Virus record (IMG/VR): IMGVR_UViG_3300009499_000010
Coordinates: 1 to 62,355 of that record
Source: a virus
DNA length: 62,355 nt
Direction: 5' to 3' (one strand)
The position numbers were made by a program, and so were the translations under genes. This document shows positions 10,503 to 56,038 of the stretch, piece after piece. Below the pieces are notes generated by a model. The model was not told the origin of the DNA. It saw nothing but the letters and a program-made list of their open reading frames with translations, and searched no databases. The number at the start of each line of letters is the position of its first letter. The stretch's first letter is position 1.

Positions 10503-10778
10503 ATGGACAGGGCTCTGGCTATGGATAAGAGAGGTCGAATTCAAGAGAGCAAAGGGCAGAGGATTAAATGTCCTTACTGCGGAAGATGGCGCACCTATAA
10601 GGTCTATTGGACTGACGAGTATGGCAAGTTTGTCCACTGTCTTCACTGTACAGAGAAGATAAGAGAGGATTGGGAACTCAGCTTGTCTAACTCCGAGTTG
10701 AAGCGCGGAGAGTTCTGGTTGTACTTTGCACTTGCGATTATTCTTGCTGTCTTATTGTACTTGGTGCTTGGGCTATGA
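10503..10778 (+). CDS. Zinc-ribbon membrane protein, 91 aa
   Basis: Residues 23-49 hold CPYCG and CLHC, a four-cysteine zinc ribbon. Residues about 72-91 form one C-terminal transmembrane segment (FWLYFALAIILAVLLYLVLG). The expected topology is a cytoplasmic zinc domain anchored by a tail. Function unknown. It overlaps the terminase ATG by four bases. Confidence 0.65.
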   Translation: MDRALAMDKRGRIQESKGQRIKCPYCGRWRTYKVYWTDEYGKFVHCLHCTEKIREDWELSLSNSELKRGEFWLYFALAIILAVLLYLVLGL

Positions 10779-12571
10779 GCAAAGCAAAGACTCAATTTGA
10801 GAAACTTGCTGGAAGGGCAATGGAACTTCTGACTCCAGATGAGAAGGAAGAGTATGCCCGTATATTTGGCGAAGAGACTGTGACAACTCTTGTTGAGAAG
10901 ATGAGCTATACAGAGAGACGGCTGGACAGTTCTATTCGTGATAGATTGAGCAAGCCTATTAAGAATAGATTACAACTGCGTGACCTTCTTTGGGCCATGG
11001 CTGACTACACAGGATTGCCAAGAATCCCTACAGCGCCTGTTTGTGATAATCACTGTGCTCCTTTTGATTCGGTGAGCGCTGCCTTCTTCGGACACAGCCC
11101 CAACTACTTGAAGCATGCCAATCGCCACGGATATAAGACTATGGGCGATGCCTTCCTGATGTTTGTAGAATCTGTGATGTCAGGCGGTTGCAAGTCAAAG
11201 ATACTCGGAGGTTCTGGAACTCAGTCAAAGAATGTGTATGAATACATTCAGCTGCTTGATGATATTCCAGCTTGCCATGAATTGCTTCAGAACGTCTTTG
11301 TTCAGAAAGCACAATTCAGGAATCGCAGCGAAGTTTCAATGCTGACTCAATCAATGAAGTCTGTGCGTGGGCCACATCCACAGAAGTTAAGGCTTGACGA
11401 GATAGAGGAGTTTGACCCACAAGTATTCCGAGCAGCGCTGGCGACGACAAGGAGTTACGGCGGCGTGCCATCCTCCATAGGCATGGGAAGCACACACCAC
11501 AGGCGTTCAGGCATCATGGCTGAACTTCTGAAAGACCACACAAAGAGAGGCATTGCGCTGTTTCAGTGGTGTATCTTTGAAGTAATGGAACAGTGTAAGC
11601 AGAAGTCTTGTAAGATTTGCAAAGCAGTCAAGAAGAAGGATTATGAGGGCAATGAAGTTTCCTTCTATGACTTCTGTCAAGGGAAGGCCAAGAGGAGCAG
11701 AGGATATTATTCTTTGGCAGAGGTCTTGGAGAAATTCACGCTGCTCCCTCTTGAGGATTTCAAAGCAGAATGGCTTTGCCAGGCAGTGTCCCTGTCCGGC
11801 TATGTCTTCCCAAAGTTTGAAGCTGAAGAGGAAATGCTTCACGTATCCAGGCGAGCAGCATATGACCCAACCCTTCCAACAACAAGAACTTGGGACTTTG
11901 GCTGGAGTGGGGCAACTGTAATACTCTGGCTTCAAGTTGACGGGGATAGACAGAAGAGAGTAATTGACGAGCAATGGTTTGTCATGACACCTTTCCCAGA
12001 AATATGCAAGCAGATAAAAGCAAAGCTATATCAGTCAAGCACAGGAAGAGTTCTTGATTATGGCGACCCAGCAGTGAAGGGCGGCAAGGACAAAATTATT
12101 GGCATCGATGATTTAACATATCTGCGCTCGCAAGGATTTGATATCATCTCAAAGGCGTCAGGCATCCCGCAGGGCATCAGGCTTATCAATGAAGCACTTG
12201 AGCCAATTAACAACGCTTCGCAATTGATAGTCAATCCAATTTGCGAGCATTTGATTGAGTATCTGAAGGATGCGAAGTATCCAGTTGACGCACAAGGTCA
12301 GCCTGTTTCAGAGATTCCGATAAAAGACGGGAAGGAACACCCAGGTGATGCTTTACGCTATTGGTTTATTCACAATGAGGCACCTGTCGTTGCGCCAGCT
12401 TATGGTGGAAGGAATCCAGGTGACAAAATTGTTTTGAAGGAAGGTAAAAAGATTCTCGTACCAGCTGGAGGCGTAGCAAAGGAAGGGAAGCAACTTGTTG
12501 TTGCTGGCTCTGCTTCATTTGGATTCTTTCGCAACCAAATGCGCAGAAGATTTCTTGGATTGAGGGGTTAA
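10775..12571 (+). CDS. terL: Terminase large subunit
   Basis: DNA-packaging motor ATPase and nuclease that cuts concatemers and pumps DNA through the portal. The ATPase shows GGSGTQSK (145-152, a variant P-loop) and LDEIE (207-211, Walker B with catalytic Glu). The RNase H-like nuclease shows D374 in WDFGWSG, D428/D431 in LDYGDPA and D525 in HPGDALRYW. Length 598 is in the normal range, with a longer N-terminus than many. It is followed one base later by the portal gene, the usual order. A CKQKSCKICK insert near residues 272-281 is unusual. Confidence 0.93.
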   Translation: MSKAKTQFEKLAGRAMELLTPDEKEEYARIFGEETVTTLVEKMSYTERRLDSSIRDRLSKPIKNRLQLRDLLWAMADYTGLPRIPTAPVCDNHCAPFDSVSAAFFGHSPNYLKHANRHGYKTMGDAFLMFVESVMSGGCKSKILGGSGTQSKNVYEYIQLLDDIPACHELLQNVFVQKAQFRNRSEVSMLTQSMKSVRGPHPQKLRLDEIEEFDPQVFRAALATTRSYGGVPSSIGMGSTHHRRSGIMAELLKDHTKRGIALFQWCIFEVMEQCKQKSCKICKAVKKKDYEGNEVSFYDFCQGKAKRSRGYYSLAEVLEKFTLLPLEDFKAEWLCQAVSLSGYVFPKFEAEEEMLHVSRRAAYDPTLPTTRTWDFGWSGATVILWLQVDGDRQKRVIDEQWFVMTPFPEICKQIKAKLYQSSTGRVLDYGDPAVKGGKDKIIGIDDLTYLRSQGFDIISKASGIPQGIRLINEALEPINNASQLIVNPICEHLIEYLKDAKYPVDAQGQPVSEIPIKDGKEHPGDALRYWFIHNEAPVVAPAYGGRNPGDKIVLKEGKKILVPAGGVAKEGKQLVVAGSASFGFFRNQMRRRFLGLRG

Positions 12572-12572
12572 C

Positions 12573-14009
12573 ATGGGCAAGAAATTTGATTGGCTCTTGA
12601 GAAAGGCTGGGCTTCAGAGATTTCAAGAGCAAGTTCCAGCTCTGAGCTATGTTGACCCAGATGACTATTTGTATAGGCAATTGGGAGTGTCCAAGCAAGA
12701 CCTTACTCCATTTGTATGGGAGCGACACGAGAAGATAGCATATTACTTGTATCTCGTCAATCCTCTCTGCAATCGTATCATCGAGTTGACGAAAGACTAC
12801 ACAGTGAGCGCCGGAATTGAGTTCCAAGCCACGGATAGAAAAATCCAGAAATTGCTCCAGGATTTCTGGGATGACGAGATTAACAACATGGAGATGCGAC
12901 AGTTCCTAATGGCGCTGGAGATTGCATTGACAGGAGAGCAAGTCATCGTTCCAACTGTCAACAAATACAACGGCGCTGTAACCATCGAGATTCTTAACAA
13001 TCTTCAAGTAGCAAAGGTTTTGCAGAATCCAAAAAATCAGAACATTCCAGAGTATGTTGTCCTCAGACCTCTTCATGGCTTGACCATGGAAAATATGGAA
13101 GCGAAGAAACTCAAGATAGTTGGCAAAGACAGGAACCCAATGAATGACTCCTTTGGGCGTCTTGTTGGTGAGGTTTTCTTCTTTGCTGTCAACAAGGTCA
13201 CAAATGCAACTCGCGGCCACTCGGATGTTCTTTCTGTAATAGACTGGATAGAAGGTTACGATGAATTTCTCTACTCGGAAATGGAAAGAGCGCAAGCAAT
13301 GAAGGCGCATATCTGGGATGTGGAAATTGAAGGAGCAGACAAGCAAGCAATTGATGACTTCCTTCAGAAAGTTCCGCCACCAAGGCCAGGTTCAATTAGA
13401 GCGCACAACGAGAAGATAAAATGGGCTCCCCTAACACCAGACCTGAAAGCAGCTGACGCAACAGCGCAAGCAAGGCTTATTAGAACGCACATACTTGCTG
13501 GTGCCGGATTCCCTGAGACTTGGTTCTCGGAAGGCGGTAAGACAAACAGAGCGACAGCCGGAGAAATGGCATCGCCAACTCTCAGAAGTCTTGCGACAAG
13601 ACAAAAGTTTTTCAAGCATATGGTGAGGAGAATCTTCCAATTTGTAATTGACCAAGCGAAGATTCACAAAGCTATTCCAGAAGATGTAGATGAAACTTTC
13701 GTCATAGATATTCCTATGGTTGAGAGAGACACCAAAGATAAGGCTCAAGTGCTTGTAAGCATGACCAATGCTATGATGATTGCGCGAGAGAATGCTTGGA
13801 TTTCTGACGAAGAAGCAAAGGTGGTCTTCCAGCACTTCATGGGGCAGATGGGGATTGAGATTCAGAGATTGCGACAGCAATCAGGCAAGCCCAACGCTGA
13901 TGAAGTTCTTGACCCAGAGCGTATGAAGAAGCCAGATATGACAGAGGATTACATCTGGGCAATGGATAGATTCAAGGCGATGGTGAAAGCAGGGAAAGAG
14001 AGCGCATAG
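12573..14009 (+). CDS. Portal protein
   Basis: Forms the dodecameric ring at the capsid vertex that docks the terminase and later the tail. Supported by position (between terminase and MuF gene), length (478 aa) and portal-like features: an N-terminal NPLCNRIIELTKDYTVSAG segment, the central ALTGEQVIVP region, and a C-terminal long helix plus Gln-rich crown. Exact subfamily (SPP1-like or HK97-like) was not determined. ATG is one base after the terminase stop. Confidence 0.85.
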   Translation: MGKKFDWLLRKAGLQRFQEQVPALSYVDPDDYLYRQLGVSKQDLTPFVWERHEKIAYYLYLVNPLCNRIIELTKDYTVSAGIEFQATDRKIQKLLQDFWDDEINNMEMRQFLMALEIALTGEQVIVPTVNKYNGAVTIEILNNLQVAKVLQNPKNQNIPEYVVLRPLHGLTMENMEAKKLKIVGKDRNPMNDSFGRLVGEVFFFAVNKVTNATRGHSDVLSVIDWIEGYDEFLYSEMERAQAMKAHIWDVEIEGADKQAIDDFLQKVPPPRPGSIRAHNEKIKWAPLTPDLKAADATAQARLIRTHILAGAGFPETWFSEGGKTNRATAGEMASPTLRSLATRQKFFKHMVRRIFQFVIDQAKIHKAIPEDVDETFVIDIPMVERDTKDKAQVLVSMTNAMMIARENAWISDEEAKVVFQHFMGQMGIEIQRLRQQSGKPNADEVLDPERMKKPDMTEDYIWAMDRFKAMVKAGKESA

Positions 14010-15761
14010 TTGCCAGTAACACTCAAACAAAGGAAGGATTATCAAAAGAAGTTGGGCCAGCTTTACAAGGAAGTTGACACAACAACAGAAGGTGGCCTCA
14101 AGACGGCGCTCAACTTTCTCAAGCAGATGGGCAGGAAGGTCACAGCAGAAATGGCTGTTGCTAAGAATTACAGAGCTGAGCATTTGAAGGCGCTGCGAAA
14201 AGAATTGAAATCGCACGTGAGTGAGTTTGAAGAGAGACTTCTTGACGTGACTGGTAAGGCACAGAAGAAAACATATCGGCTCGGAGCGAAGTCAGCAACG
14301 ACGCTTCCGAAAGTCTTTGGGGTCAAGATAGACCTTCCAGGAGTTGATGAGACAGCGCTGCGAGTTGCGCAGTCATTCACAGCAGACTTAGTCACAGGCG
14401 TTACAGATAAGATGAGAAGCAGAATCAATAGAGAGGTTTCGCAAGTTGCCCTTGGAATAAAAAAGCCTGACGAGGCAATTGCAGATTTGGGCAAGATAAT
14501 AACTCCAGTAAGAACTCGTGTTGGTTTGGTTGGCTCAGCATACAGGGCAGAGATGGTAATGCGGACAGAGACCAACCGTGCTTTTTCAATCGGAGCAAAC
14601 GAAAGAGCGAAACAAGTTGAGACGAAATCTCCGGGGCTGAAGAAGTGGTGGTTGACTGCGGCAGACGAAAGAGTGCGACCAACACATGTGGATGCCGGAG
14701 TTAGGTATGACGAAACAAATGCCATTCCAATCAAGCAGAACTTCCATGTGGGTCGTGGAAGGTTGAAGATGCCCTCTGACCCAGCAGGGCCACCAGAGGA
14801 AGTTATCAACTGCCGCTGCCGCGCAATCTACACGCATCCAGATTGGGAGGAAGCGGCAGCCGCAAAAGTTGACAAGAAAGTCGAGAAGATGCCGCCATCT
14901 GTTGTTGCAAAACAGGCTCAAGCTATCGGGCAGGAGCTTGGCAGGCTCTCGCCAAGTGATTTGGCAACACTTTCTGTGCCGGAAGGTTTGGAAGTTCTCA
15001 AAAAACTTCGCAAAGAAGTCCCAAGCTTGAAGGTCAGCGAAGCAACAAGGAAGAGGGCACAAGAGCTTTTGCGGATTTGGACTGTTGGCGAAAGTCGTGA
15101 TGAAGTCAGCGAGCTAAAGAAACAGATGGTCAAGTCTGCCTTAGAAGGTGGCGGCAAAGACTTGGATGCGTTGGCTCTGATTTACGCGCAAACTCAAGCG
15201 GCACATCGGGGAAGGAAACAACCATTCAGATTGAGTCGTGGAGTGGCCTTAACTGATGAAGATTTTGGGAAACTGGAAGTTGGTTCAAAGATAGACACCA
15301 GAGAAGTGGGTTCTTGGACTCGCAGTACGCCAAAAGCTGAAGATTTTGCTGAAGTGAATGTGATTCTTGACGAGAAAAACAAAGTTGTGTTTCTTACTGA
15401 TGTCGATAAAGCAGATGTTTTTGCCGACCATTCGAGCAACAAAGCATTTGACGCGCACAAAGATGAACAAGAGTTTCTGGTCATTGGGCCAAAGAGGAGA
15501 GAAGTTGAAGCGATGGTTAAGGTAGGAGATGTAACTTTTGTGACCCTCAAAAAAGTTAAAACTTTGACAGAGGCAGCAGCAATATTGTTCTTAGACTTCT
15601 CCTCTCCACAAAGAATAATTCCAAAAGACTTAGAATCTGCTATAGCTCTTTGGAGCCTTTTGAAGAAGAGAGGCGAGCTTGCAACAAATAAGGGCTTGAG
15701 GCGCGTTTTGAAGCATCAGATTTCAATGCTTACAAAGAAGGAGTTTCAAGAGGAAGTTTGA
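14010..15761 (+). CDS. MuF-like head protein fused to an ADP-ribosyltransferase domain
   Basis: TTG start directly after the portal stop. Residues about 1-275 are a MuF/SPP1 gp7-type minor head domain ending in INCRCRAIYTHP (266-277). The C-terminal part has the R-S-E signature of mono-ADP-ribosyltransferases: R407 or R410 in FRLSRG, S435/T437 in GSWTRST, and E486-Q-E488 in DEQEFLV. These would bind NAD and modify a target. MuF fusions to toxin domains are known from phage polyvalent proteins. It is likely packaged and delivered with the DNA; target unknown. Confidence 0.85.
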   Translation: MPVTLKQRKDYQKKLGQLYKEVDTTTEGGLKTALNFLKQMGRKVTAEMAVAKNYRAEHLKALRKELKSHVSEFEERLLDVTGKAQKKTYRLGAKSATTLPKVFGVKIDLPGVDETALRVAQSFTADLVTGVTDKMRSRINREVSQVALGIKKPDEAIADLGKIITPVRTRVGLVGSAYRAEMVMRTETNRAFSIGANERAKQVETKSPGLKKWWLTAADERVRPTHVDAGVRYDETNAIPIKQNFHVGRGRLKMPSDPAGPPEEVINCRCRAIYTHPDWEEAAAAKVDKKVEKMPPSVVAKQAQAIGQELGRLSPSDLATLSVPEGLEVLKKLRKEVPSLKVSEATRKRAQELLRIWTVGESRDEVSELKKQMVKSALEGGGKDLDALALIYAQTQAAHRGRKQPFRLSRGVALTDEDFGKLEVGSKIDTREVGSWTRSTPKAEDFAEVNVILDEKNKVVFLTDVDKADVFADHSSNKAFDAHKDEQEFLVIGPKRREVEAMVKVGDVTFVTLKKVKTLTEAAAILFLDFSSPQRIIPKDLESAIALWSLLKKRGELATNKGLRRVLKHQISMLTKKEFQEEV

Positions 15762-16172: not shown

Positions 16173-19100
16173 ATGGAGCTTGCGAAAGTCAGCCCACAGT
16201 CTCTCCGAAAGGAGAGTAATTCAGCGCTGCTGAATATGCACTACCACACCCACATGCTCTATGAATGGTGGAAGAAGGGCAGAGACATTCCAATTGAGGA
16301 CGTGAAGAAAGCTCACGACCTTATAGTTGACGAGTTCGTCAAGAGAGAGATGGAGAAAGAAGGAGAACACAGGTCACCGATGGCGCTTCAAGAGCAAGAC
16401 TTGGCAAAAGTCTATCCTTCTGGCGAGAAGAAGGGCAAGAAGATTACACTCAAGAGCTTGCCGAAGTTTGGCGACTTCTATCTTGGGGACAGATTCATCT
16501 CGTTGGTTGGCTCATTGCCCAATAATGGAGAGACTGAGAATGACATTGACTTCTTGATAGCTTGGCCGGAAGATGCTCCAGACGAAATCACAAGACCTAT
16601 TAAGTTCAGACTTTGGCGGCAGTTTCAAGACCCAAAGCTGCAAGCACGATGCTCCTTCCATCTCGACAGCTTTCATGGCCCATTTACAAATTCAGTCCCG
16701 CTATATCGGCTCAAGTGTGAGAGGATAAACCATGACATGGATGTCATCCTTGCTGCTCTGAAACGAGAGCCAACAGCAATGGCCCAAGCAGGGCAATCGA
16801 AGAAGGCAGACAAGATTGAGCCAAGGCGGTTTTTCTATCCGCAAAAGGCAATCAAAGCGCTTGCCATACGCAAGAAGCTGAAAGGGCCATGGGACTATTC
16901 GGAAGCAGTCAAGGAAGCAGCTGCGATGCTTCCCGTTGTCGCAGAGAAGAAGTATGACGGGATGCGTATTATATTAAATAAGGATAACGGCTGGGTCAGG
17001 ATTATGACTGACGGTGGTACAGACGTCACGTCAAGGCTGCCTATGCTCGTTGCGCAGCTGAAGAAGATTCCGCATAAGTCATTTGTACTCGATGCAGAAC
17101 TGGAATGGTGGGAAGATGGAGTCCATCAACCAAGGGAAGAAGTTGCCGCAGCGCTGATGTCGAAAGAGGAGCTTGACGAGAGTTGGCTCATTGCTAATGT
17201 CTTTGAGCTTCTGTATCTTGATGGAAAAGACTTGCACAACTTGCCGTGGGGGGAGCGCCACGAGCAGCTCAAGAAGTTCCCAATCAAGAGAGAGCAACTT
17301 GAGTTCAAGGCAGACGATGAAATGTTGAACAGAGTTCCTTCCCTTATTGCCGAGAAGGAAGCAGACTTGGCAAAGCATATCAAGACTGTCTCGGAGGCAA
17401 AGGCATCAGAGGGAGCGATAATCAAGAGCGCAACAGCGCCTTATCCTCTGACTGGCGCAACAAAGCATATGGTCAAGGCGAAGAAATATGCGACTGTCTT
17501 TGGGAAGGTTATCAAACGCAACCCAACAAAGGTCGCAACTGTCTTCAACTATGACTACGCAATCAGGATTCCAGAAGCAAAAGTTGACCCAGCATCAGTC
17601 ATTGAGATTGGCGGGAAGAAGTATTCACGAACTGGGACTTCATACTCAACGACAGAGAAACTCAACCCAGGCGATGTCTTTGCTCTTTCCTTCCATACAG
17701 TCAACAAGTATACAGACCCAGAGACAGGGAAGGTCAGTGTTCATTTCTATGAGCCTGTGTATGATGGGAAGGTAGCAAGAACAGAGCCAAATACGCTCGC
17801 AGAGGTCGAAACAATTGCAAAGGATGCTGGGCTCATCGGATATAAGGAAGGCAAGCAGACCTTCCGAGAGAATGCTGAGACAATCTTCCTCAAGTTTCTC
17901 GGCACAAAAGGCGAAATTGAAGAAGAGTCACCAGGACACAAGAGACACACAGCTGTTCAAGTTGTTCATCTCGACCATGGCGGGCTGATTGACTTTGGAG
18001 AGACTTGGAAAGGGAAGTTGGACACTGTTCGGACAGCTGCGGAAGGAAGCATCAGGTGGATAGCGCTAACTCATGCTCACCCTGACCATGTTGGCGGGCT
18101 TGAAGGCGAAGAGATTGACATCCCAGTCTACATGACCGCTGAGACAGACAAGCTCCTTCCCAAAGACAAATATCCTATGAAGAATAGGATAATTGTGAAG
18201 GAAGGCAAGAAGGTCGAAGTTGCGCCTGGTTGGGATTTGACAGCTATCTCAGTTGAGCATTCTTCCAAAGCGCCAACTGTTGGCTTCAAGCTCGCAATTC
18301 CAAACAAGGAAGATAAGAGCTATACAATTGGCTACTTCCCAGATGTGGCAGACCTTGACGAAAGAGACTTGAGGGGCATCGACCTTTACATTGGCGATGG
18401 GGCATCGCCCACAAGGCCAATCCTGCGTGGTCAATCGCCGGAAGGCGAAGATGTTGGACATGCTTCGATGAAGCAGCAACTCAAATGGTGCCAAGACATG
18501 GGTGTCCATTCGGCTGCTTTCATACATCAAGGGAAGCAATCAGTTGAGACGGATGACCAGAAGATAATTGATTTGCTCCAACAGGCCTTCCCAAACAAGG
18601 AGATTCTGCTGCCTGATGATGGTGAAGTTCTGGCACTTCCTGAGCACGCGGTGAAGGATGGAGTTTATCTTGTGCCGCCACATGGCGAGTTATTTTGGAA
18701 TGGCGAGAAGGATTTGCTCATCAAAGCAAAAGAGTTCCACATCCTGTCGCAGCATCCGCACTTTCTTGCGTCTGACTTAGTGTATGGAATCATCAAGTTC
18801 AAACCGCCAGAGAAGATTACACTTGCTGAGTTTGCCAAGCTCCGAAACAGGCACCAAATCTCTGAGGCAGAAAGAAAGAAGTGGTGGCCGGACAAAGATG
18901 AACTATATGCGTATGAGATTGAGTCTTTCTTCCCGTGGCACACTCCGAAAAAATACCAATACATCAAAGGGGCACAAACCATCATCAAGAATCTGCAATT
19001 GGTTGAGACGGCGAAGAGAAACATTATGTTTGCCTCAACTGAGGAGTTGAAAGAGGTTGCATACATCCACTCGCGCAAGAAGTTTGCCGGAAGCATTGTC

Positions 19101-21410
19101 AACAAATTCCCGCAAGGCACAAAGGTTGTATTCGACCCAATGTGCGGCACAGCGTCTGTCTTAGTTGAGGCTGCAAGAAGAGGAATGGCAGTTGTTGGAA
19201 ACGACTTCAATCCATATGCCTATTTCTTTGCCAAAGGAATTTTTGAAGGCATTGGCCTTGACTCGGAAGATATGAAGGCGTTGCTTTTCCCGCCAGAGAG
19301 GGAAGGATGGTTCACGCTTCATTACAAAGGACAGCACCCGCAGAATAAAGTCTTGAGAGCGTTTGTGGACAGTGCTGTTCTCAATATCCAAGAGGCATTC
19401 AAAGGTAAGGAGAAGAAACACAACGCAGCAATGGCAGCTGTTGTCTCCTTCCTTGGGAGATTCTTCAGAGGCACGCACACAGGCATTGCTTCCAATTGGT
19501 ATTATCAGGATGTAGATAAGAGCAGAGCAATGCTGAGAAGCTCCATTCTTGAAGTGAATAACCTTATTCAGCAAATTGGCGGGAAGGGAACTATAACAAA
19601 TTTGGATGCATTCTCGATGGAAATTCCTGAGGCAGATGTTATTCTGCTTGACCCACCGATGCTGAAGAAAGGAATCTACAGGCCCGCACTCTCCGAGTAC
19701 AAGACGCGCAATTCAATCCTTATCCAAGACACATTCCGATACAACAAGAACTCAGCGAGAGATTTGGAGAGTTTGCTTGATAAGTTGGCGAAGAAGTGTA
19801 AGACTCTTGTTGTTGTCCCGGAAGATGAAAGTGAACTGGATTGGGAGAGCTTGCTTGCGAAGCGTAAGAAGAATGTCAAGAAATTCCAGATGTCCTACTT
19901 CAAGAAGATTCGCACACCAGGCGCAATCTCCTCTGTGAGCAAATCAAGGATTCAAAAGATGTTCTTGGCTGAGCAGGGTGACCCATATCTGCTCGTGCCG
20001 GATGAAGACAAGGCTCTCAAATATATGGTGCATCATCACTGGCGTGGAAAGGGCTGCCATGCCGATGTGAGATTTGATAGCAAGTTGAAAGGCATGCTCA
20101 TTGGTTGGACTCTTGACGACCTAATGCCTGGTATAGTTGCTGAGCCAGTCCTAACAGCCAAGGATGCTGTTCAAAAGGAAGCCAGCCCTGATAAGTATTT
20201 CAAGATAAACTGGAAGACAGGAATCTGGAAGAAGAGATTGAAAAAAGGCCAAACAACTCCTGTCAATGTTACAATAATGACGCAGAAGAAAGCGCCTGAG
20301 CCGATTGAGTGGATGACGTTTGAAGGAGTTGTCGAGCCAGGTCAGGTAGGAGCCACTAAGAATTTCCCAGGTGTATTTATTATAATAGATAAGGGCAAGA
20401 TTGAATACGGAGCGCAGAAACCATGGTCGCATGAATACTTCTTCAACGGGAAGGCGCTTGACTACAAGGTTGTGATGCGTCAACTGAAGGCAGATTTTGG
20501 TGAGGCGCTGAAAAAGGATAAGGCGCTCCAGCGGCATCTCATTCTTCATCCAGATTTGTTTGATGAAGAAGGTCTTGAAGAAAGCATCGGGGCAATGGAT
20601 AGGGAGCTGTTGGAATCTTTGCCTGATGAGCTGTTCAAAGATTGTTTTGTTGTTGAATCAAAGATGTTTATTGACAACTGCGAAGAGCAGCAAATCATCC
20701 CGCCATCAGAAGAGAAGGTATCAGGCGTCAAGTGGTTTACCATCAAGCCAATAGACCAGACGCCATATGTGCTCTCGGATGAAGCAGTGAAGAAAAAATG
20801 GATGCCGCCTTTGGGTAAGTCTGCTCTTCCGAAAGTCACGCGTGATGCTGTTCCAACGACGCTGAAGTATTGGAACGCAAAGAAACCAACAGAAGCGATG
20901 ATGATGCGTGATGAGTTGGTTGAGCTGCTGAAGAAAGATGAGATTGATTTGCCGAAGTATGACGAGCAGTTGAAGGAAGCGCAGCAAGGCAGGTACGTTC
21001 TCAACTACCATTGGTTTGCGAAAATAGGGCAGAAGAAGAGAGCAGGAGCCAGCGAGTTTCATTTTGACCTATTCCTGCTTGACGGGAAGAAGGAACACTT
21101 TGAGCTTGACCTTGACCCGCTGGAGCATGATACAGTCTCAGCTCATTCCCCAGATAAGGACATGGCACACGATGAGAAGTTGACTGGATTCATCAAGCCA
21201 GGAACCATACCAGGCAATCCTACAAAAGAAACTGGCTCATGGATTGAACCATGGGCAAGCGGCAAAATGCTTGTGCTCGACAGTAAACCTGATTTCAAAA
21301 AGATAAGATTCAGCGGAAAGTTAGAAGGCGTCTGGGTATTCAAAAGAGAGAGCCCAGAAGCGGATTTTTGGCAGGTAGAGAAGAGCCAAGCAGCTCCAGT
21401 CACGACGTAA
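16173..21410 (+). CDS. Giant multi-domain polyvalent protein: NTase, ATP-dependent ligase, MBL, MTase, two LigD-like phosphoesterases
   Basis: 1,745 residues. Visible domains in order: Pol-beta-type nucleotidyltransferase (GS 113-114, D124/D126); ATP-dependent nucleic-acid ligase (K260-YDG motif I, EGAIIKS 413-419, K435/K437) with an OB-like region to about 580; metallo-beta-lactamase fold (HAHPDH 634-639); an ASCH/PUA-like segment (about 870-950); class I methyltransferase (DPMCGTAS 988-995, DPPM 1160-1163); a LigD 3'-phosphoesterase-like domain (HHH 1287-1289, H1296, D1298, R1300) and a second at about 1595-1745 (H1613, H1630, D1632). The set suggests end-processing, ligation and modification of nucleic acid. 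It lies inside the head cluster, so virion packaging is plausible. Substrate unknown. Confidence 0.85.
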   Translation: MELAKVSPQSLRKESNSALLNMHYHTHMLYEWWKKGRDIPIEDVKKAHDLIVDEFVKREMEKEGEHRSPMALQEQDLAKVYPSGEKKGKKITLKSLPKFGDFYLGDRFISLVGSLPNNGETENDIDFLIAWPEDAPDEITRPIKFRLWRQFQDPKLQARCSFHLDSFHGPFTNSVPLYRLKCERINHDMDVILAALKREPTAMAQAGQSKKADKIEPRRFFYPQKAIKALAIRKKLKGPWDYSEAVKEAAAMLPVVAEKKYDGMRIILNKDNGWVRIMTDGGTDVTSRLPMLVAQLKKIPHKSFVLDAELEWWEDGVHQPREEVAAALMSKEELDESWLIANVFELLYLDGKDLHNLPWGERHEQLKKFPIKREQLEFKADDEMLNRVPSLIAEKEADLAKHIKTVSEAKASEGAIIKSATAPYPLTGATKHMVKAKKYATVFGKVIKRNPTKVATVFNYDYAIRIPEAKVDPASVIEIGGKKYSRTGTSYSTTEKLNPGDVFALSFHTVNKYTDPETGKVSVHFYEPVYDGKVARTEPNTLAEVETIAKDAGLIGYKEGKQTFRENAETIFLKFLGTKGEIEEESPGHKRHTAVQVVHLDHGGLIDFGETWKGKLDTVRTAAEGSIRWIALTHAHPDHVGGLEGEEIDIPVYMTAETDKLLPKDKYPMKNRIIVKEGKKVEVAPGWDLTAISVEHSSKAPTVGFKLAIPNKEDKSYTIGYFPDVADLDERDLRGIDLYIGDGASPTRPILRGQSPEGEDVGHASMKQQLKWCQDMGVHSAAFIHQGKQSVETDDQKIIDLLQQAFPNKEILLPDDGEVLALPEHAVKDGVYLVPPHGELFWNGEKDLLIKAKEFHILSQHPHFLASDLVYGIIKFKPPEKITLAEFAKLRNRHQISEAERKKWWPDKDELYAYEIESFFPWHTPKKYQYIKGAQTIIKNLQLVETAKRNIMFASTEELKEVAYIHSRKKFAGSIVNKFPQGTKVVFDPMCGTASVLVEAARRGMAVVGNDFNPYAYFFAKGIFEGIGLDSEDMKALLFPPEREGWFTLHYKGQHPQNKVLRAFVDSAVLNIQEAFKGKEKKHNAAMAAVVSFLGRFFRGTHTGIASNWYYQDVDKSRAMLRSSILEVNNLIQQIGGKGTITNLDAFSMEIPEADVILLDPPMLKKGIYRPALSEYKTRNSILIQDTFRYNKNSARDLESLLDKLAKKCKTLVVVPEDESELDWESLLAKRKKNVKKFQMSYFKKIRTPGAISSVSKSRIQKMFLAEQGDPYLLVPDEDKALKYMVHHHWRGKGCHADVRFDSKLKGMLIGWTLDDLMPGIVAEPVLTAKDAVQKEASPDKYFKINWKTGIWKKRLKKGQTTPVNVTIMTQKKAPEPIEWMTFEGVVEPGQVGATKNFPGVFIIIDKGKIEYGAQKPWSHEYFFNGKALDYKVVMRQLKADFGEALKKDKALQRHLILHPDLFDEEGLEESIGAMDRELLESLPDELFKDCFVVESKMFIDNCEEQQIIPPSEEKVSGVKWFTIKPIDQTPYVLSDEAVKKKWMPPLGKSALPKVTRDAVPTTLKYWNAKKPTEAMMMRDELVELLKKDEIDLPKYDEQLKEAQQGRYVLNYHWFAKIGQKKRAGASEFHFDLFLLDGKKEHFELDLDPLEHDTVSAHSPDKDMAHDEKLTGFIKPGTIPGNPTKETGSWIEPWASGKMLVLDSKPDFKKIRFSGKLEGVWVFKRESPEADFWQVEKSQAAPVTT

Positions 21411-21425: not shown

Positions 21426-24026
21426 GTGGTGAAGTTTACTGAACTGTTGACAGAGGCATCTGTCCTATTGATTGAGAAAGGGGGTGAGCAGGGAAGAGTA
21501 TGGGATGTTGTTCTGATTGATGTTGGTCTTTCTTTGAACAACAAGTTCTATCCGAAAGAGGTGTTGTCTGGGGCAAAGGACTTATTTGAGGGAAGTCAGT
21601 GTTTTGCCTATGAATTCAAGGCAGGAGCGCACGACAAGAATTACAACCACCTGCCTTGGAGAGTCAGACAAGTCATGCCAGATGGCCTTGCGCGCAATTT
21701 GGTTGGCGACTTCCGCAACGTTAGGTTTGGGGAATACACCTCACCAGAGGGAGACAAACGTCATGGGCTCCTTGCGGAGTTCCATTGCATTGAGGATTGG
21801 CTTCGACAGAAACTTGTCAATGCTTACAACAGCGGGAATCCGAGTATGCTTGGATTTTCAATTGATGCTGAAGGAATTGTTACAGACTATCCGCACAAAG
21901 GCCGGATAGTCAAGAAGGTAGTAAGCATTGAGAAAGTTCACGAAGTGACCGCTGTTACCAGCCCTGCGGCTGGTGGGAAGATTTTGCGTTTGGTTGCTTC
22001 AATAGAAGGAGCAGAAGTTATGGAAGAGCTGAAGAAAAAGCTCAAGGAGTTGTTCAGCAAGAACTTCCTGGAAGGGAAGTTGCTTGAGGGCATTGGAGAG
22101 CTGACCGAAGAGAAGATGGTTGAGCTTGTTGACAAGGCAGTCGAGAAGGCCGAAGAAGACAAGGAGCTGGTTGAGCAGTCCAAGCTACCTATCATTCTCC
22201 GTGCCCTGCGTGATGCGCTGAAAGGTGGCGACACCAAGAAGGCCATGACGATGGTTGACGACCTTATCAGCAACCTTGCCAAGTATCCTTATCCAGCGCC
22301 AGCAAAGGCTGCGGACATGATGGATAAGAAAAAGAAGTATCCTTATCCCAGCCCGGTGAAAGCCGGAGAAGGCAATGACGACAACAAGGGTAAGGTTGAC
22401 CCTGAGGCAGTCAAGAAGATGCAGGAGCAGCTGAAGAAGCTGGAAGAAGAAGAGGCAGAGAAGGCCAGAGTTGCCGATATCAAAAAGCTCATCTCGGAAG
22501 CTAAGTTGAGCAATGCCCAAAAGGCAGAACTTGAGACGGCTTGCGAGAAGGTTTCTGTTGAGGAAACCAAGAAGCTGGTTGAGAAGGCGCTCAAGGGCAA
22601 AGACCTTGCCGAAGATGAGACAGTGAAGGGCCTGAAAGAATCTGTCGCCAAGCTGCAAGAAGATGCCAAGAAAGACAGAGATGAGCTTCAGAAGATTCGC
22701 AAGGAAGAGCAGAAGGCGAAAGTCAAACTGCTCATCACCGAATCCAAGCTGCCCAAGCCTTTCCAGGAAAAGCTCGCAGAGCAGTTGGCTGAATCAAATG
22801 TTGAGGTAGCCACGAAACTCATCGAGTCTGAAAGAAAAGCTCTTGCTGCGATTGAGCAGTCAGTGGGCAGCGGCATAGCCGTTGCCAGGGCTGAGCTTCA
22901 GGAAAGCGAGAGAGACAAGTTCCAGCTGTCGATGGACGCAATGCTCGGCGTGCCTGTTGAGGGCAACGTTGCTCCGTTCAGAGGGATACAGCACGCATTC
23001 GCTGTAATCACTGGAAGGAGAGACTTTGAGGTCAGAGATGTGCTGGCTGAGGCTGTGATGTTTGTTCCTTCCTATATGAAGGAAGGGCAAGGCAGGAGCA
23101 GAGTGCTTGAGTCCCTCAAGACTTCAGACTTTGCGGAAATCCTTGGCGACTCAATCCACCGCAGAATGGTGCGGGAATACAAACTTGATGACCTGAATAC
23201 CTGGCGACAGCTCGTGTCAGAAATCAGCAACATCAAGGACTTCCGTGTCAATCCGCGCATGAGGATGGGTGGCTATGGAACGCTGCCGGAAGTTCCTGAG
23301 CAGGGAACTTACCAACCGCTGACTTCACCTACTGACGAGCAGGCAACCTTCCAAATCAAGAAACGTGGCGGTTTGGAAGACTTGACGATGGAGATGATTG
23401 CGAATGACGACATCGGCGCTCTGAAGAAGATTCCCATAAAACTCGGAAGAGCTGCTGTTCTGACTCTCTATCGCACCATCTTCGACATCCTCAGACTCAA
23501 CCCCACCATCTATGACACCAAGACACTGTTCCACGCTGACCACGCGAACACAGACACCAAGGTGCTGAGTTCTGATAACCTGATGCTTGTCAGGAAGGCC
23601 ATGCAGAAGCAGCAGCCTTACGGGCAGTCTGACGAGTTCTTGGGCATGATGAATGTTCCAGCACGTCTGGTTATTCCGCCAGACCTTGAGGATGTTGCAT
23701 TCCAGCTGCTGAAGTCAGCTGTGGAGGTTATCTCCAACAAGGATGCAACAGTTCCGAACATTCACTCAACATATCTCAAGGGCTACATCGTAGTGCCTTA
23801 CTGGACTGATGCAACAGACTGGGTTGCGGTAGCTGACCCCGCCATGATTAACACAATTGAGGTTGGGTTCTATCAAGGCAAGCAAGACCCAGAGCTGTTC
23901 GTTCAAGACCAGCCGAATGTAGGGTCAGTTTTCACAGCTGACAAAATAACCTACAAGATAAGGCACATCTGGGGCTTTGCTGTCCTGGATTACAGAGGAT
24001 TCTACAAGAACGTGGCGGCTGGATAG
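21426..24026 (+). CDS. Prohead protease-scaffold-major capsid fusion
   Basis: GTG start behind AAAGGAG. Residues 1-195 resemble a herpes/U35-type prohead protease (H69 and H75 region, S145 in LGFSIDAEG, then HEVTAVTSPAAG). Residues about 200-480 are a charged coiled coil, the scaffold. Residues about 490-866 match Mu gpT-type major capsid protein: LFHADHANTD, the LVIPPDLE segment, VADPAMINTIEVGF and the final YKIRHIWGFAVLDYRGFYKN. The shell protein would be released by self-cleavage, as in other fused capsid systems. An internal start giving free capsid protein was not found but cannot be excluded. Confidence 0.88.
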   Translation: MVKFTELLTEASVLLIEKGGEQGRVWDVVLIDVGLSLNNKFYPKEVLSGAKDLFEGSQCFAYEFKAGAHDKNYNHLPWRVRQVMPDGLARNLVGDFRNVRFGEYTSPEGDKRHGLLAEFHCIEDWLRQKLVNAYNSGNPSMLGFSIDAEGIVTDYPHKGRIVKKVVSIEKVHEVTAVTSPAAGGKILRLVASIEGAEVMEELKKKLKELFSKNFLEGKLLEGIGELTEEKMVELVDKAVEKAEEDKELVEQSKLPIILRALRDALKGGDTKKAMTMVDDLISNLAKYPYPAPAKAADMMDKKKKYPYPSPVKAGEGNDDNKGKVDPEAVKKMQEQLKKLEEEEAEKARVADIKKLISEAKLSNAQKAELETACEKVSVEETKKLVEKALKGKDLAEDETVKGLKESVAKLQEDAKKDRDELQKIRKEEQKAKVKLLITESKLPKPFQEKLAEQLAESNVEVATKLIESERKALAAIEQSVGSGIAVARAELQESERDKFQLSMDAMLGVPVEGNVAPFRGIQHAFAVITGRRDFEVRDVLAEAVMFVPSYMKEGQGRSRVLESLKTSDFAEILGDSIHRRMVREYKLDDLNTWRQLVSEISNIKDFRVNPRMRMGGYGTLPEVPEQGTYQPLTSPTDEQATFQIKKRGGLEDLTMEMIANDDIGALKKIPIKLGRAAVLTLYRTIFDILRLNPTIYDTKTLFHADHANTDTKVLSSDNLMLVRKAMQKQQPYGQSDEFLGMMNVPARLVIPPDLEDVAFQLLKSAVEVISNKDATVPNIHSTYLKGYIVVPYWTDATDWVAVADPAMINTIEVGFYQGKQDPELFVQDQPNVGSVFTADKITYKIRHIWGFAVLDYRGFYKNVAAG

Positions 24027-50350: not shown

Positions 50351-51412
50351 ATGCCCCACGCTTGCCAGCGAGTCAGGCTCCAGCAAGCTATCAAACTGAA
50401 GAAGGAAGGACAGGAAGAATTGAGTCCAGGCAAACGGATAGTTAGAAAGGCACGAAAGAGATTCAGCGCCGAAAAATTGAGAGGATTGCAAGCCTTGCCG
50501 CTGAGATTGAAAATTGGCATAACACTTGAACGCATCGCTGAATTCTATGAGTACTATAAGGGAGCTGTGTATGTTGCCCTCTCTGGTGGTAAGGACAGTA
50601 CTGTTCTGCTTGTACTTGTGCGGCTTTTGTATCCAGAAGTTGTTGCAGTCTTTCAGGATACTGGGTTGGAATTTCCAGAGATTAGGGCATTTGTTAAAAC
50701 ATTCGATAATGTTGTCTGGCGAAAACCTGAGCAGTCCTTTCTGCATGTGCTCGCCATTTTTGGCTATCCGGTGATTAGCAAGAATGTTGCGAGAGCTATG
50801 GAAGTGCTCCAGAATCCTCATCCCGGCAATGCAGCCACAAGGCATCTCTGGCTGACTGGCTACAATCGTGCAGGGCAATTCAGTTCTTTCTACAAGCTTG
50901 CAAATAAATGGAGATTTTTGGTTGATGCTCCGTTCAAAATTTCTGGCAAATGCTGTGAGATTATGAAAAAGAAACCCGCTGAAAAGTTTGCAAAAGAATC
51001 TGGACTTCATCCTTTCATTGGCACAATGGCGGCTGACTCTCGATGGCGGAAGAGGCTTTACTTGGAGACTGGTTGTAATGCTTTCGATGTTGCTCGGCCT
51101 TATTCAACGCCTTTGGGATTTTGGACTGAGCAGGACATCTTGAGATTCTTGTTTGAATTTGAGATTCCATTTGCTCCAGTGTATGGAAGGATTGTGGAAA
51201 ATTCAGATGGTCAGTTACAAACAACAGGAGAGAGAAGGACAGGTTGCATGTTCTGTATGTTTGGAGTTCATCTGGAGAAGGGAGAGAACAGATTTCAACG
51301 AATGGCCCACACGCACCCCAAGTTGTATAAGTATTGTATCAATAAGTTGGGCTGTGGTAGAGTTTTGGATTTTATAGACGTCAGCTACAGAACGCCAAAA
51401 ACAGCTTTGTGA
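50351..51412 (+). CDS. PAPS-reductase-family PP-loop protein
   Basis: PP-loop SGGKDST (78-84) marks the adenine-nucleotide alpha-hydrolase fold of PAPS reductases and DndC-type sulfur-handling enzymes. C-terminal GKCCEIMKKKP and RRTGCMFCMFG supply four cysteines that may hold a metal or Fe-S cluster. Phage copies may take part in thiolation or phosphorothioation of nucleic acid, or in sulfate metabolism; no dnd partner is seen here. It lies just before the helicase gene. Confidence 0.75.
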   Translation: MPHACQRVRLQQAIKLKKEGQEELSPGKRIVRKARKRFSAEKLRGLQALPLRLKIGITLERIAEFYEYYKGAVYVALSGGKDSTVLLVLVRLLYPEVVAVFQDTGLEFPEIRAFVKTFDNVVWRKPEQSFLHVLAIFGYPVISKNVARAMEVLQNPHPGNAATRHLWLTGYNRAGQFSSFYKLANKWRFLVDAPFKISGKCCEIMKKKPAEKFAKESGLHPFIGTMAADSRWRKRLYLETGCNAFDVARPYSTPLGFWTEQDILRFLFEFEIPFAPVYGRIVENSDGQLQTTGERRTGCMFCMFGVHLEKGENRFQRMAHTHPKLYKYCINKLGCGRVLDFIDVSYRTPKTAL

Positions 51413-54741: not shown

Positions 54742-54822
54742 ATGGCGAAGAGGGCAACACAATTAAATAAGGTTCGGAAGGTCGTGGCTGACCTTCCCCA
54801 GAAGAAAGGAGAGGGCAGATGA
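54742..54822 (+). CDS. Possible leader peptide, 26 aa
   Basis: A short frame with AAGGGAGAGACGA before its ATG; its stop overlaps the ATG of the AAA+ gene (ATGA). The close coupling suggests a small translated leader. It may not be a functional protein. Confidence 0.35.
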   Translation: MAKRATQLNKVRKVVADLPQKKGEGR

Positions 54823-56021
54823 GGCCAGGGCAAAAGCGTGACCCAGAACCAGGAACCATGAATGCGGTCAAGAACTTCCTGGTGAAAGCTCTGGAGGGTA
54901 ATGAATCATGGACAGCCGATGCGGTCAAAAAGAAGTACAAGCTAACAGCCAAAGAGGTCAAGGCACTGGCTGTTAGGATTGTCTGTGACCAAAAAGGCAT
55001 CATCACAGAGTACATTGCGAAGGTTGTGCCAAAGGGCAGAAGAAGCAGAAGAGGAAGGAAGTCAACAACCTTCTTCAATGGCTTCCAAGTCCAAGACTCC
55101 TCTGGCAAAGGAAAGGATGCCGGAGAGGTTCTTGAAGAGGCACGAGTTGACGTGCCTGAATTTCTGGAAGGCTACATTCCAGAAGAAGTCAGCCTTGAGG
55201 CATATATCCCAAGGAAGATTGGCGAGAAGTATGACCTTGAGATTCTCGCTCAGGCTTTCCGAGAGCGCATGAACGTCTTGCTTGTTGGCGAATCAGGAAC
55301 TGGCAAGAACGCAGTGGTCAAAGCATTCTGCGCAGCGCTTGGTTTGCCGCATAAGCGTATCAACTTGAATGGCGGCAGCACAGTCGAAGACATGATTGGC
55401 AGCCGTGAGCTTGAAGATGGTGAGACAACTTTCCGTGACGGAGTCATAACACAGTTCTGCCGCCATGGTGGTGTTGTCGTGCTTGATGAAGTCAACGCGG
55501 CTGACCCGGAGCAGTTGTTTGTGCTCCATGGTCTGACTGATGATTCACGAGCGCTAACCCTGACGCAGAAAGGAGAAGGTGGCGAAGTATTGAAGGCATC
55601 TGATAACTTCATGGTTGTCGGCACCATGAATCCTCTGACCTATGAAGGCACGCGGCGCTTGAACGCTGCTTTTCTTGATAGGTTTGCCATCGTCATGTTC
55701 TATGACTGGGACAGGGATATTGAAGCGCAACTCATTGGCGATAAGAAATTGCTTGAGTTTGCCGAGAAGGTGCGCGAGTTGTACCGCACCAGGGAAATAA
55801 CCACCCCAGTCACTACAAGGACTCTTCTTCACTTCCTCAAAACAGAGAAGTTGTTTGGCCGCAAGACGTCTGTGGAATTGATGCAAAGCAGATTCCCAGC
55901 TGAGGAAGCAGCGGCAGTCAAAAACTTCCTGACCTTGCTTTATGATGAACCAACGATGGTCAAGGCCGCGCAGGGAAGTAAAGTTGATGTTGATGTTGAT
56001 GAAGAAGATGATGATTGGTAA
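54819..56021 (+). CDS. MoxR/CobS-like AAA+ ATPase
   Basis: GESGTGKN (157-164) is Walker A and LDEVN (222-226) Walker B; TRRLNAAFLDRF follows as sensor/arginine-finger region. This is the MoxR/CobS type of AAA+ ATPase that remodels a partner VWA protein. Residues 1-130 are a basic helical extension. The C-terminus is acidic (DVDVDEEDDDW). It is paired with the VWA gene that starts 17 bases after its stop. Confidence 0.85.
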   Translation: MRPGQKRDPEPGTMNAVKNFLVKALEGNESWTADAVKKKYKLTAKEVKALAVRIVCDQKGIITEYIAKVVPKGRRSRRGRKSTTFFNGFQVQDSSGKGKDAGEVLEEARVDVPEFLEGYIPEEVSLEAYIPRKIGEKYDLEILAQAFRERMNVLLVGESGTGKNAVVKAFCAALGLPHKRINLNGGSTVEDMIGSRELEDGETTFRDGVITQFCRHGGVVVLDEVNAADPEQLFVLHGLTDDSRALTLTQKGEGGEVLKASDNFMVVGTMNPLTYEGTRRLNAAFLDRFAIVMFYDWDRDIEAQLIGDKKLLEFAEKVRELYRTREITTPVTTRTLLHFLKTEKLFGRKTSVELMQSRFPAEEAAAVKNFLTLLYDEPTMVKAAQGSKVDVDVDEEDDDW

Positions 56022-56038
56022 GGAAGGAAGGTGCTGGA

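Follow-up and report, generated by a model that had tools for sequence, protein, structure and literature searches.

A giant head-cluster polyprotein of uncultured viruses with predicted DNA ligase and 3'-end-processing domains

Known multi-enzyme and end-joining systems

Polyvalent proteins were described by Iyer et al. (2017) as single polypeptides in which 2-15 domains supply a range of enzymatic activities. In the available sections of that work, they are giant multi-enzyme chains encoded in head clusters with portal and MuF genes, their domains are mixed and matched, and the head-located ones are predicted to be injected (PMC5512222). Polyprotein X, the protein studied here, has this organization, with several enzymatic domains in one chain that is encoded among portal and terminase head genes. 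Both groups include Pol-beta nucleotidyltransferases (NTases) and adenine methylases. However, the same sections contain no fusion with a DNA ligase or a LigD 3'-phosphoesterase (PE), and they place the NTase mostly in mobile elements of firmicutes, with a protein-modifying role. The large polyvalent proteins they cover are almost only bacterial, whereas members of the polyprotein X family also occur in archaeal viruses and archaeal MAG contigs.

The idea of particle-borne repair is shared with ASFV, whose virions package the repair enzymes PolX and AP endonuclease, but these are separate proteins of an unrelated virus and include no PE (PMC12172490). Mycobacteriophages exploit NHEJ to circularise, with a phage Ku-like protein (Pitcher et al. 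2006, as cited in PMC4351075). They illustrate the general idea, whereas the polyprotein X family has its own ligase and no Ku in the records searched. Ku (PF02735) was not found in 15 viral records, which are mostly fragments, and host Ku could serve; a search for the Mu Gam end-bridging protein was also negative.

LigD and the stand-alone archaeal PE have an ATP-dependent ligase, a 3'-phosphoesterase with an HxxHxDxR-type motif and the PE fold in common with polyprotein X. The polyprotein family differs in its two or three PE copies, its Pol-beta-type NTase and the replacement of the His84 and Tyr88 equivalents, and the polyprotein X ligase is structurally closer to Lig1 and archaeal ligases than to LigD. 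The AEP polymerase domain (TIGR02778) is absent from the window and ten relatives. Since LigD forms without a polymerase domain exist, this absence excludes full LigD only.

ANMV-1 is thought to infect anaerobic methane-oxidising archaea and was the only match to the PE-MID-PE block among 50,697 phage records. Its protein AJP62006 (KP703175), annotated solely as an 'ATP-dependent DNA ligase', has the core order NTase-ligase-OB-PE1-MID-PE2 in common with polyprotein X and is about 35% identical in the alignment. AJP62006 differs in its length of 866 aa, in the lack of metallo-beta-lactamase (MBL), ASCH and methyltransferase domains, and in a second PE without metal residues. The ANMV-1 paper (PMC4372165) nowhere mentions a ligase by that word in its text. 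The neighbour of this ligase, AJP62007 (5868-9368 in our ANMV-1 locus), is a protein of 1166 aa with cysteine-rich repeats, and its C-terminus looks MuF-like by eye (CDYCRD...YHEHCRCY). A search of the open-access literature found no description of the polyprotein family, which is apparently an undescribed, large set of modular ligases and 3'-end-processing enzymes.

Reading frame and domains of polyprotein X

The window is the whole stretch of DNA analysed, the linear IMG/VR virus record IMGVR_UViG_3300009499_000010 of 62,355 bp, in which no tRNA and no Rfam match was found. The initial annotation had proposed a single frame of 1,745 residues in the head gene cluster, and both points were borne out. 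The frame opens with ATG at 16173 and continues through 1745 uninterrupted codons to the stop at 21408-21410. A ribosome-site-like GAGGG run lies immediately 5' of the ATG, and stops are abundant in the frame read on the reverse complement of 16173-21410. Chance or a frame artefact is ruled out by a relative (L003) that is 68% identical and collinear across the whole polyprotein and the flanking genes, because every domain is kept there under purifying selection (62-81% amino acid identity, synonymous sites near saturation). The features are as follows.

10775-12571, plus strand: terminase large subunit (PHROGs; context)
12573-14009, plus strand: portal protein (PHROGs; context)
14010-15761, plus strand: MuF head morphogenesis protein (Pfam, PHROGs; context)
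16173-21410, plus strand: polyprotein X, single ORF, 1745 aa
16215-16352, plus strand: N0, helical motif of ~46 aa (residues 15-60; iterated HMM)
16398-16730, plus strand: putative Pol-beta-type minimal NTase (residues 76-186; G113, D124, D126, D165)
16932-17483, plus strand: ATP-dependent DNA ligase adenylation domain (residues 254-437; K260, E309, E413, K418)
17502-17807, plus strand: ligase OB-fold domain (residues 444-545)
17889-18620, plus strand: MBL domain (residues 573-816; HxHxDH 634-639, H696, H785)
18657-19004, plus strand: ASCH/PUA-like domain (residues 829-944)
19062-19901, plus strand: D12-like methyltransferase (residues 964-1243; motif I FDPMCG)
19977-20489, plus strand: PE1, LigD 3'-phosphoesterase-like domain (residues 1269-1439)
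20730-20951, plus strand: MID module (residues 1520-1593), kept in 82/83 loci
20994-21383, plus strand: PE2, second LigD PE-like domain (residues 1608-1737)
21426-24026, plus strand: major capsid protein (C-terminal 562-862; N-terminal part weakly protease-like)

The six enzyme families named in the initial annotation hold in profile searches and structure prediction, with the NTase as the weakest case; N0, the OB domain, the ASCH-like domain and MID are additions to it. Pfam matches of polyprotein X were taken at the curated cut-off, and PHROGs agrees with Pfam on the ligase, the MBL and the D12 methyltransferase. N0 occurs in 47 of the 83 loci of the family and recurs ahead of the NTase or PE1 in relatives.

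The NTase region carries the hallmarks of the Pol-beta superfamily, namely a G-S/G motif, DxD and a third acidic residue. Across the copies, G113 (53/53), D124 (52/53) and D126 (53/53) are kept, and the position of D165 is D or E in 47. All 47 matches of its profile in the PDB are to Pol-beta/TdT, the best with an E of only 0.07, and PF01909 is touched by the NTase of three of 15 members (best E 0.025). These individually sub-threshold matches of a domain of ~110 aa give weak but consistent support for a Pol-beta type. The ligase matches DNA_ligase_A_M over residues 254-437 (Pfam, E 7.5e-19). Motifs I-V are all present and nearly invariant in the family (K260 in 61/63, E309 in 63/65). Foldseek matched an AlphaFold model of the N-terminal part (pLDDT 82.8) to archaeal and human DNA ligases with E about 1e-19 to 1e-20, and the best structural matches of the ligase are the nick-sealing DNA ligases of archaea and human Lig1.

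The MBL domain matches Lactamase_B_2 over residues 624-785 (Pfam, E 2e-14) and its metal residues, HxHxDH and two further His, are kept in all 14 copies. Its profile matches MBL hydrolases, RNase J and Apyc1, and RNase Z and PhnP models touch this domain or its relatives. The ASCH-like domain is recognized through PF04266 in two of ten relatives (best 8e-4) and through TTHA0113 in the PDB (E 0.009). MethyltransfD12 matches residues 967-1162 (Pfam, E 8e-9). The D12 N6-adenine methyltransferase motif IV is (D/N/S)PP(Y/F/W), but the window copy has DPPM (1160-1163), L003 has DPPN and four relatives have DPPY/F, so that activity of the methyltransferase in the window virus is doubtful.

For the two C-terminal domains, which had been called LigD-like in the initial annotation, profiles, hhalign and Foldseek all point to LigD PE. 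The PE2 profile matches the LigD PE structures 3p43 (1.5e-6) and 3p4h (2.6e-6), and the top PDB matches of PE1 are also LigD PE (E 0.04-1). With hhalign, for which E-values are pairwise, PE1 and PE2 reached 95.5% and 98.8% to LigD PE. A C-terminal AlphaFold model (residues 1262-1745, 20 sequences) had a pLDDT mostly >85 in PE1 and of about 70-95 in PE2; its six best Foldseek matches in the PDB, the sole ones with probability 1.00, are LigD PE (3p43 E 3.7e-5, TM by target 0.76). No structure in BFVD matched at E<=0.001. As LigD_N (PF13298) fails to match either the window or ANMV-1 at a cut-off as loose as E 10, the PE identity is based on the profiles, on TIGR02777 (LigD_PE_dom) matches in relatives and on structure.

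Inteins favour conserved functional sites. Four relatives carry inteins in conserved PE1 motifs, L005 (APEP/C), L020 (GAQK/C), L032 (LIGW/S) and L034 (RGK/S), and L032 has an additional one in ligase motif V. NCBIfam intein splicing models match L020, L032 and L034 (the last just below the cut-off); L005 was called only from its C...HN/T ends and from its matches to models that contain inteins. Such insertion points are typical of functionally constrained sites.

The active-site set of LigD PE comprises His42, His48 and Asp50 (metal), Arg52, His84 and Tyr88, and mutating His84 or Tyr88 kills the P. aeruginosa LigD PE (PMC8656161). In PE1, the metal triad is invariant (H1289 81/81, H1296 82/82, D1298 82/82) and is joined by R1300 (81/82), but alignment to LigD PE places E1376 and W1380 at the positions of His84 and Tyr88. 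In PE1, K1416 is invariant and H1420 and E1421 are mostly conserved; from the sequence, these three are candidate replacements for His84 and Tyr88. PE2 keeps its metal residues H1613, H1630 and D1632 in the window, as it does in L003, L004, L014, L016 and L020, and has no Arg52; the metal residues are lost in many relatives. Catalytic residues are intact in the ligase, the NTase, the MBL and the PE1 metal site; PE1 His84/Tyr88, PE2 Arg52 and motif IV of the methyltransferase depart from the canonical sets.

Distribution and architecture of the family

Profile scans yielded 21 viral loci, 12 MAG loci and 107 viral matches, 80 of which were kept, and clustering led to 83 distinct loci. These 83 loci with the core NTase-ligase-PE1-MID-PE2 come from bacterial and archaeal viruses and MAGs. 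A genome-contig search with a single sequence gave no match; the PE1 profile search there gave the 12 MAG loci. Most of these are archaeal (Aenigmatarchaeota, Archaeoglobales, Methanosarcinales, Thermoplasmata, Alkanophagales and others), and Dehalococcoidia and Planctomycetota are also represented. The ligase domain is missing from 18 of the 83 loci, many of them contig fragments, and such absences are weak evidence for this reason.

The family core runs NTase-ligase-OB-PE1-MID-PE2, and N0, ASCH, MBL and methyltransferases shift around it. PE precedes the ligase in L103 and L113. Several loci, many of them archaeal, split the core into neighbouring NTase-ligase and PE1-MID-PE2 genes, and a third copy of PE is frequent among them. 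That NTase, ligase and PE are neighbouring separate genes in some relatives and fused in others argues for a functional link among them. The MBL occurs in 14/83 loci and the D12-like methyltransferase in 13/83. A second methyltransferase type is plugged into L004, L015 and L019, and a Dam domain is found in L003 and L032. In L003 (10001-16036, residues ~965-1200), this canonical Dam-type adenine methyltransferase (DPPY) lies between the ASCH and D12-like domains; the window copy has no Dam.

The exact domain set had been called apparently new. The core is common to ANMV-1 and dozens of uncultured viruses, and so that part of the claim falls; MBL, ligase and D12-like methyltransferase in a single protein are found in the window and L003 only, with Dam in addition in the latter. 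We also observed a TGT/queuine tRNA-ribosyltransferase-like domain fused to the polyprotein of L013 (6421-11721, residues 224-397; phrog_887 E 6e-11), possibly a DNA 7-deazaguanine (DpdA-like) module.

Place among the head genes and possible function

The gene order in the window is TerL, portal, MuF, a 131-aa gene, polyprotein X and then the major capsid protein, and in relatives too the core was found beside portal/MuF. A portal gene lies upstream on the same strand in 38/46 loci with >4 kb of upstream DNA. Downstream of the polyprotein or fused to it, 57/71 loci have a protease- or capsid-like gene; as the iterated protease profiles may over-call, the ten divergent loci at which PHROG head or packaging genes were verified are the firm cases. 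Bacterial and archaeal viruses whose portal and terminase families differ have the polyprotein at this same site, next to portal/MuF and protease. The best case for an association of the family with the head comes from its fusion to a head protease: the C-terminus of the polyprotein is an in-frame XkdF-like head-maturation protease in 23/83 loci, and at five loci Peptidase_S78_2 (XkdF, PF14550) is above cut-off within the same open frame (E 1e-28 to 1e-35). PF14550 has no match within the window, and the head protease there is thus of a different type or unrecognised.

On these grounds we regard polyprotein X as probably a head-packaged, DNA-delivered machine for end healing and ligation, with optional modification or counter-defence modules. 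A ligase, a 3'-end healer and a nucleotidyltransferase are a minimal toolkit for repair of broken or blocked DNA ends, and a location in the head would make action at or just after entry likely. The polyprotein would be packaged in the capsid and delivered together with the genome. The PE domains would then clean 3' ends by removing a 3'-phosphate or 3'-ribonucleotide, the NTase would add a nucleotide or NMP where required, and the ligase would seal the nick or end. Nicks, breaks or termini of the incoming linear genome could thereby be repaired or closed ahead of host repair or nucleases; the polyprotein may serve to close the genome ends or to mend nicks and defence cuts. MBL, ASCH and methyltransferase are exchangeable accessories whose roles are probably DNA/RNA processing, anti-restriction modification or the removal of defence signals. 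The loss of His84/Tyr88 in PE1, the degeneracy of PE2 in relatives, the minimal NTase, the lack of Ku or Mu Gam in the records searched and the 18 loci with no ligase domain count against this explanation. The 'single ejected machine' of the initial annotation gains from the conserved position near portal/MuF and the protease fusions, and its ejection stays a prediction.

A more specific version, plausible but tentative, is virion-delivered, Ku-independent end-joining by tailed viruses of bacteria and archaea. Here an NTase-ligase-phosphoesterase polyprotein, in some viruses made in cis with the head protease, would be loaded into the capsid and ejected so that the arriving genome is healed, circularised or repaired, while plug-in modules modify DNA and degrade signals. 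Either way, the giant head-cluster protein probably accompanies the viral DNA into the cell to heal or join the DNA ends, and genome protection of this kind would be new for a virus. If true, prokaryotic tailed viruses carry DNA repair and end joining inside the particle. This would account for the survival of genomes that arrive with damaged or awkward ends, and for a viral reply to nuclease-based defence from the very start of infection. The family itself spans bacteria and archaea, and the active site of its phosphoesterase is rewired.

Polyprotein X might instead act during assembly, sealing nicks or trimming termini of the concatemer so that intact DNA reaches the terminase for packaging; the head protease would then remove the polyprotein, which is never ejected. 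With the protease in frame, the polyprotein could also be freed or degraded within the prohead, and the place between portal/MuF and protease fits assembly. We consider this unlikely, as the accessories (Dam-type and other methyltransferases, the TGT-like domain, the MBL) are more sensible in an infected cell and the polyvalent protein study (PMC5512222) predicts injection for multi-enzyme proteins located in the head.

Polyprotein X might also be primarily a counter-defence effector, in which the methyltransferase, ASCH and the MBL as an Apyc1-like cyclic-nucleotide phosphodiesterase blunt restriction and signalling, and ligase and PE undo nuclease-based cuts. A counter-defence role has been proposed for large polyvalent phage proteins (PMC5512222). 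The accessory modules are indeed the variable part of the family and the MBL profile touches Apyc1 (E 0.002), though other MBL enzymes score better. The invariant core, however, is ligase and PE rather than defence-like modules, which are sparse in the family, and with DPPM in the window methyltransferase this role seems rather improbable.

Other phage genomes have stand-alone ATP-dependent ligases, but the recurrence of the portal/MuF-protease slot across viruses with different portal and terminase families and the 23 protease fusions make an ordinary replication or repair enzyme, made in the infected cell and placed in the late operon by chance, very improbable. Enzyme folds reused as a catalytically dead scaffold of the head would agree with the loss of PE2 metal residues in many relatives, the missing His84/Tyr88 equivalents of PE1 and DPPM, but are scarcely credible given ligase, NTase and PE1 metal-site residues that are nearly invariant over 53-83 divergent copies and MBL metal residues in 14/14.

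Several further observations concern neighbouring genes. The capsid gene of the window (21426-24026) encodes 866 aa with a long N-terminal half, and its nearest full-length relative is that of Microcystis phage Mae-JY22 (35.5% identity). The portal ORF of L017 (2413-5202, 930 aa) has an intein-like insertion and a thymidylate-synthase PHROG match, and that of L078 (2973-5306) also matches an ASCH-like profile, an apparent portal-ASCH fusion. Genes for a DnaB-like helicase and a DNA primase suggest a bacterial host for the window virus. At 54819-58411, the gene after an AAA ATPase (phrog_249, porphyrin/CobS-like) encodes a weak VWA-domain protein, and the two may be a CobS/CobT-like pair; a gene of the phosphoadenosine phosphosulfate reductase family lies at 50351-51412 (phrog_424 E 4e-49).
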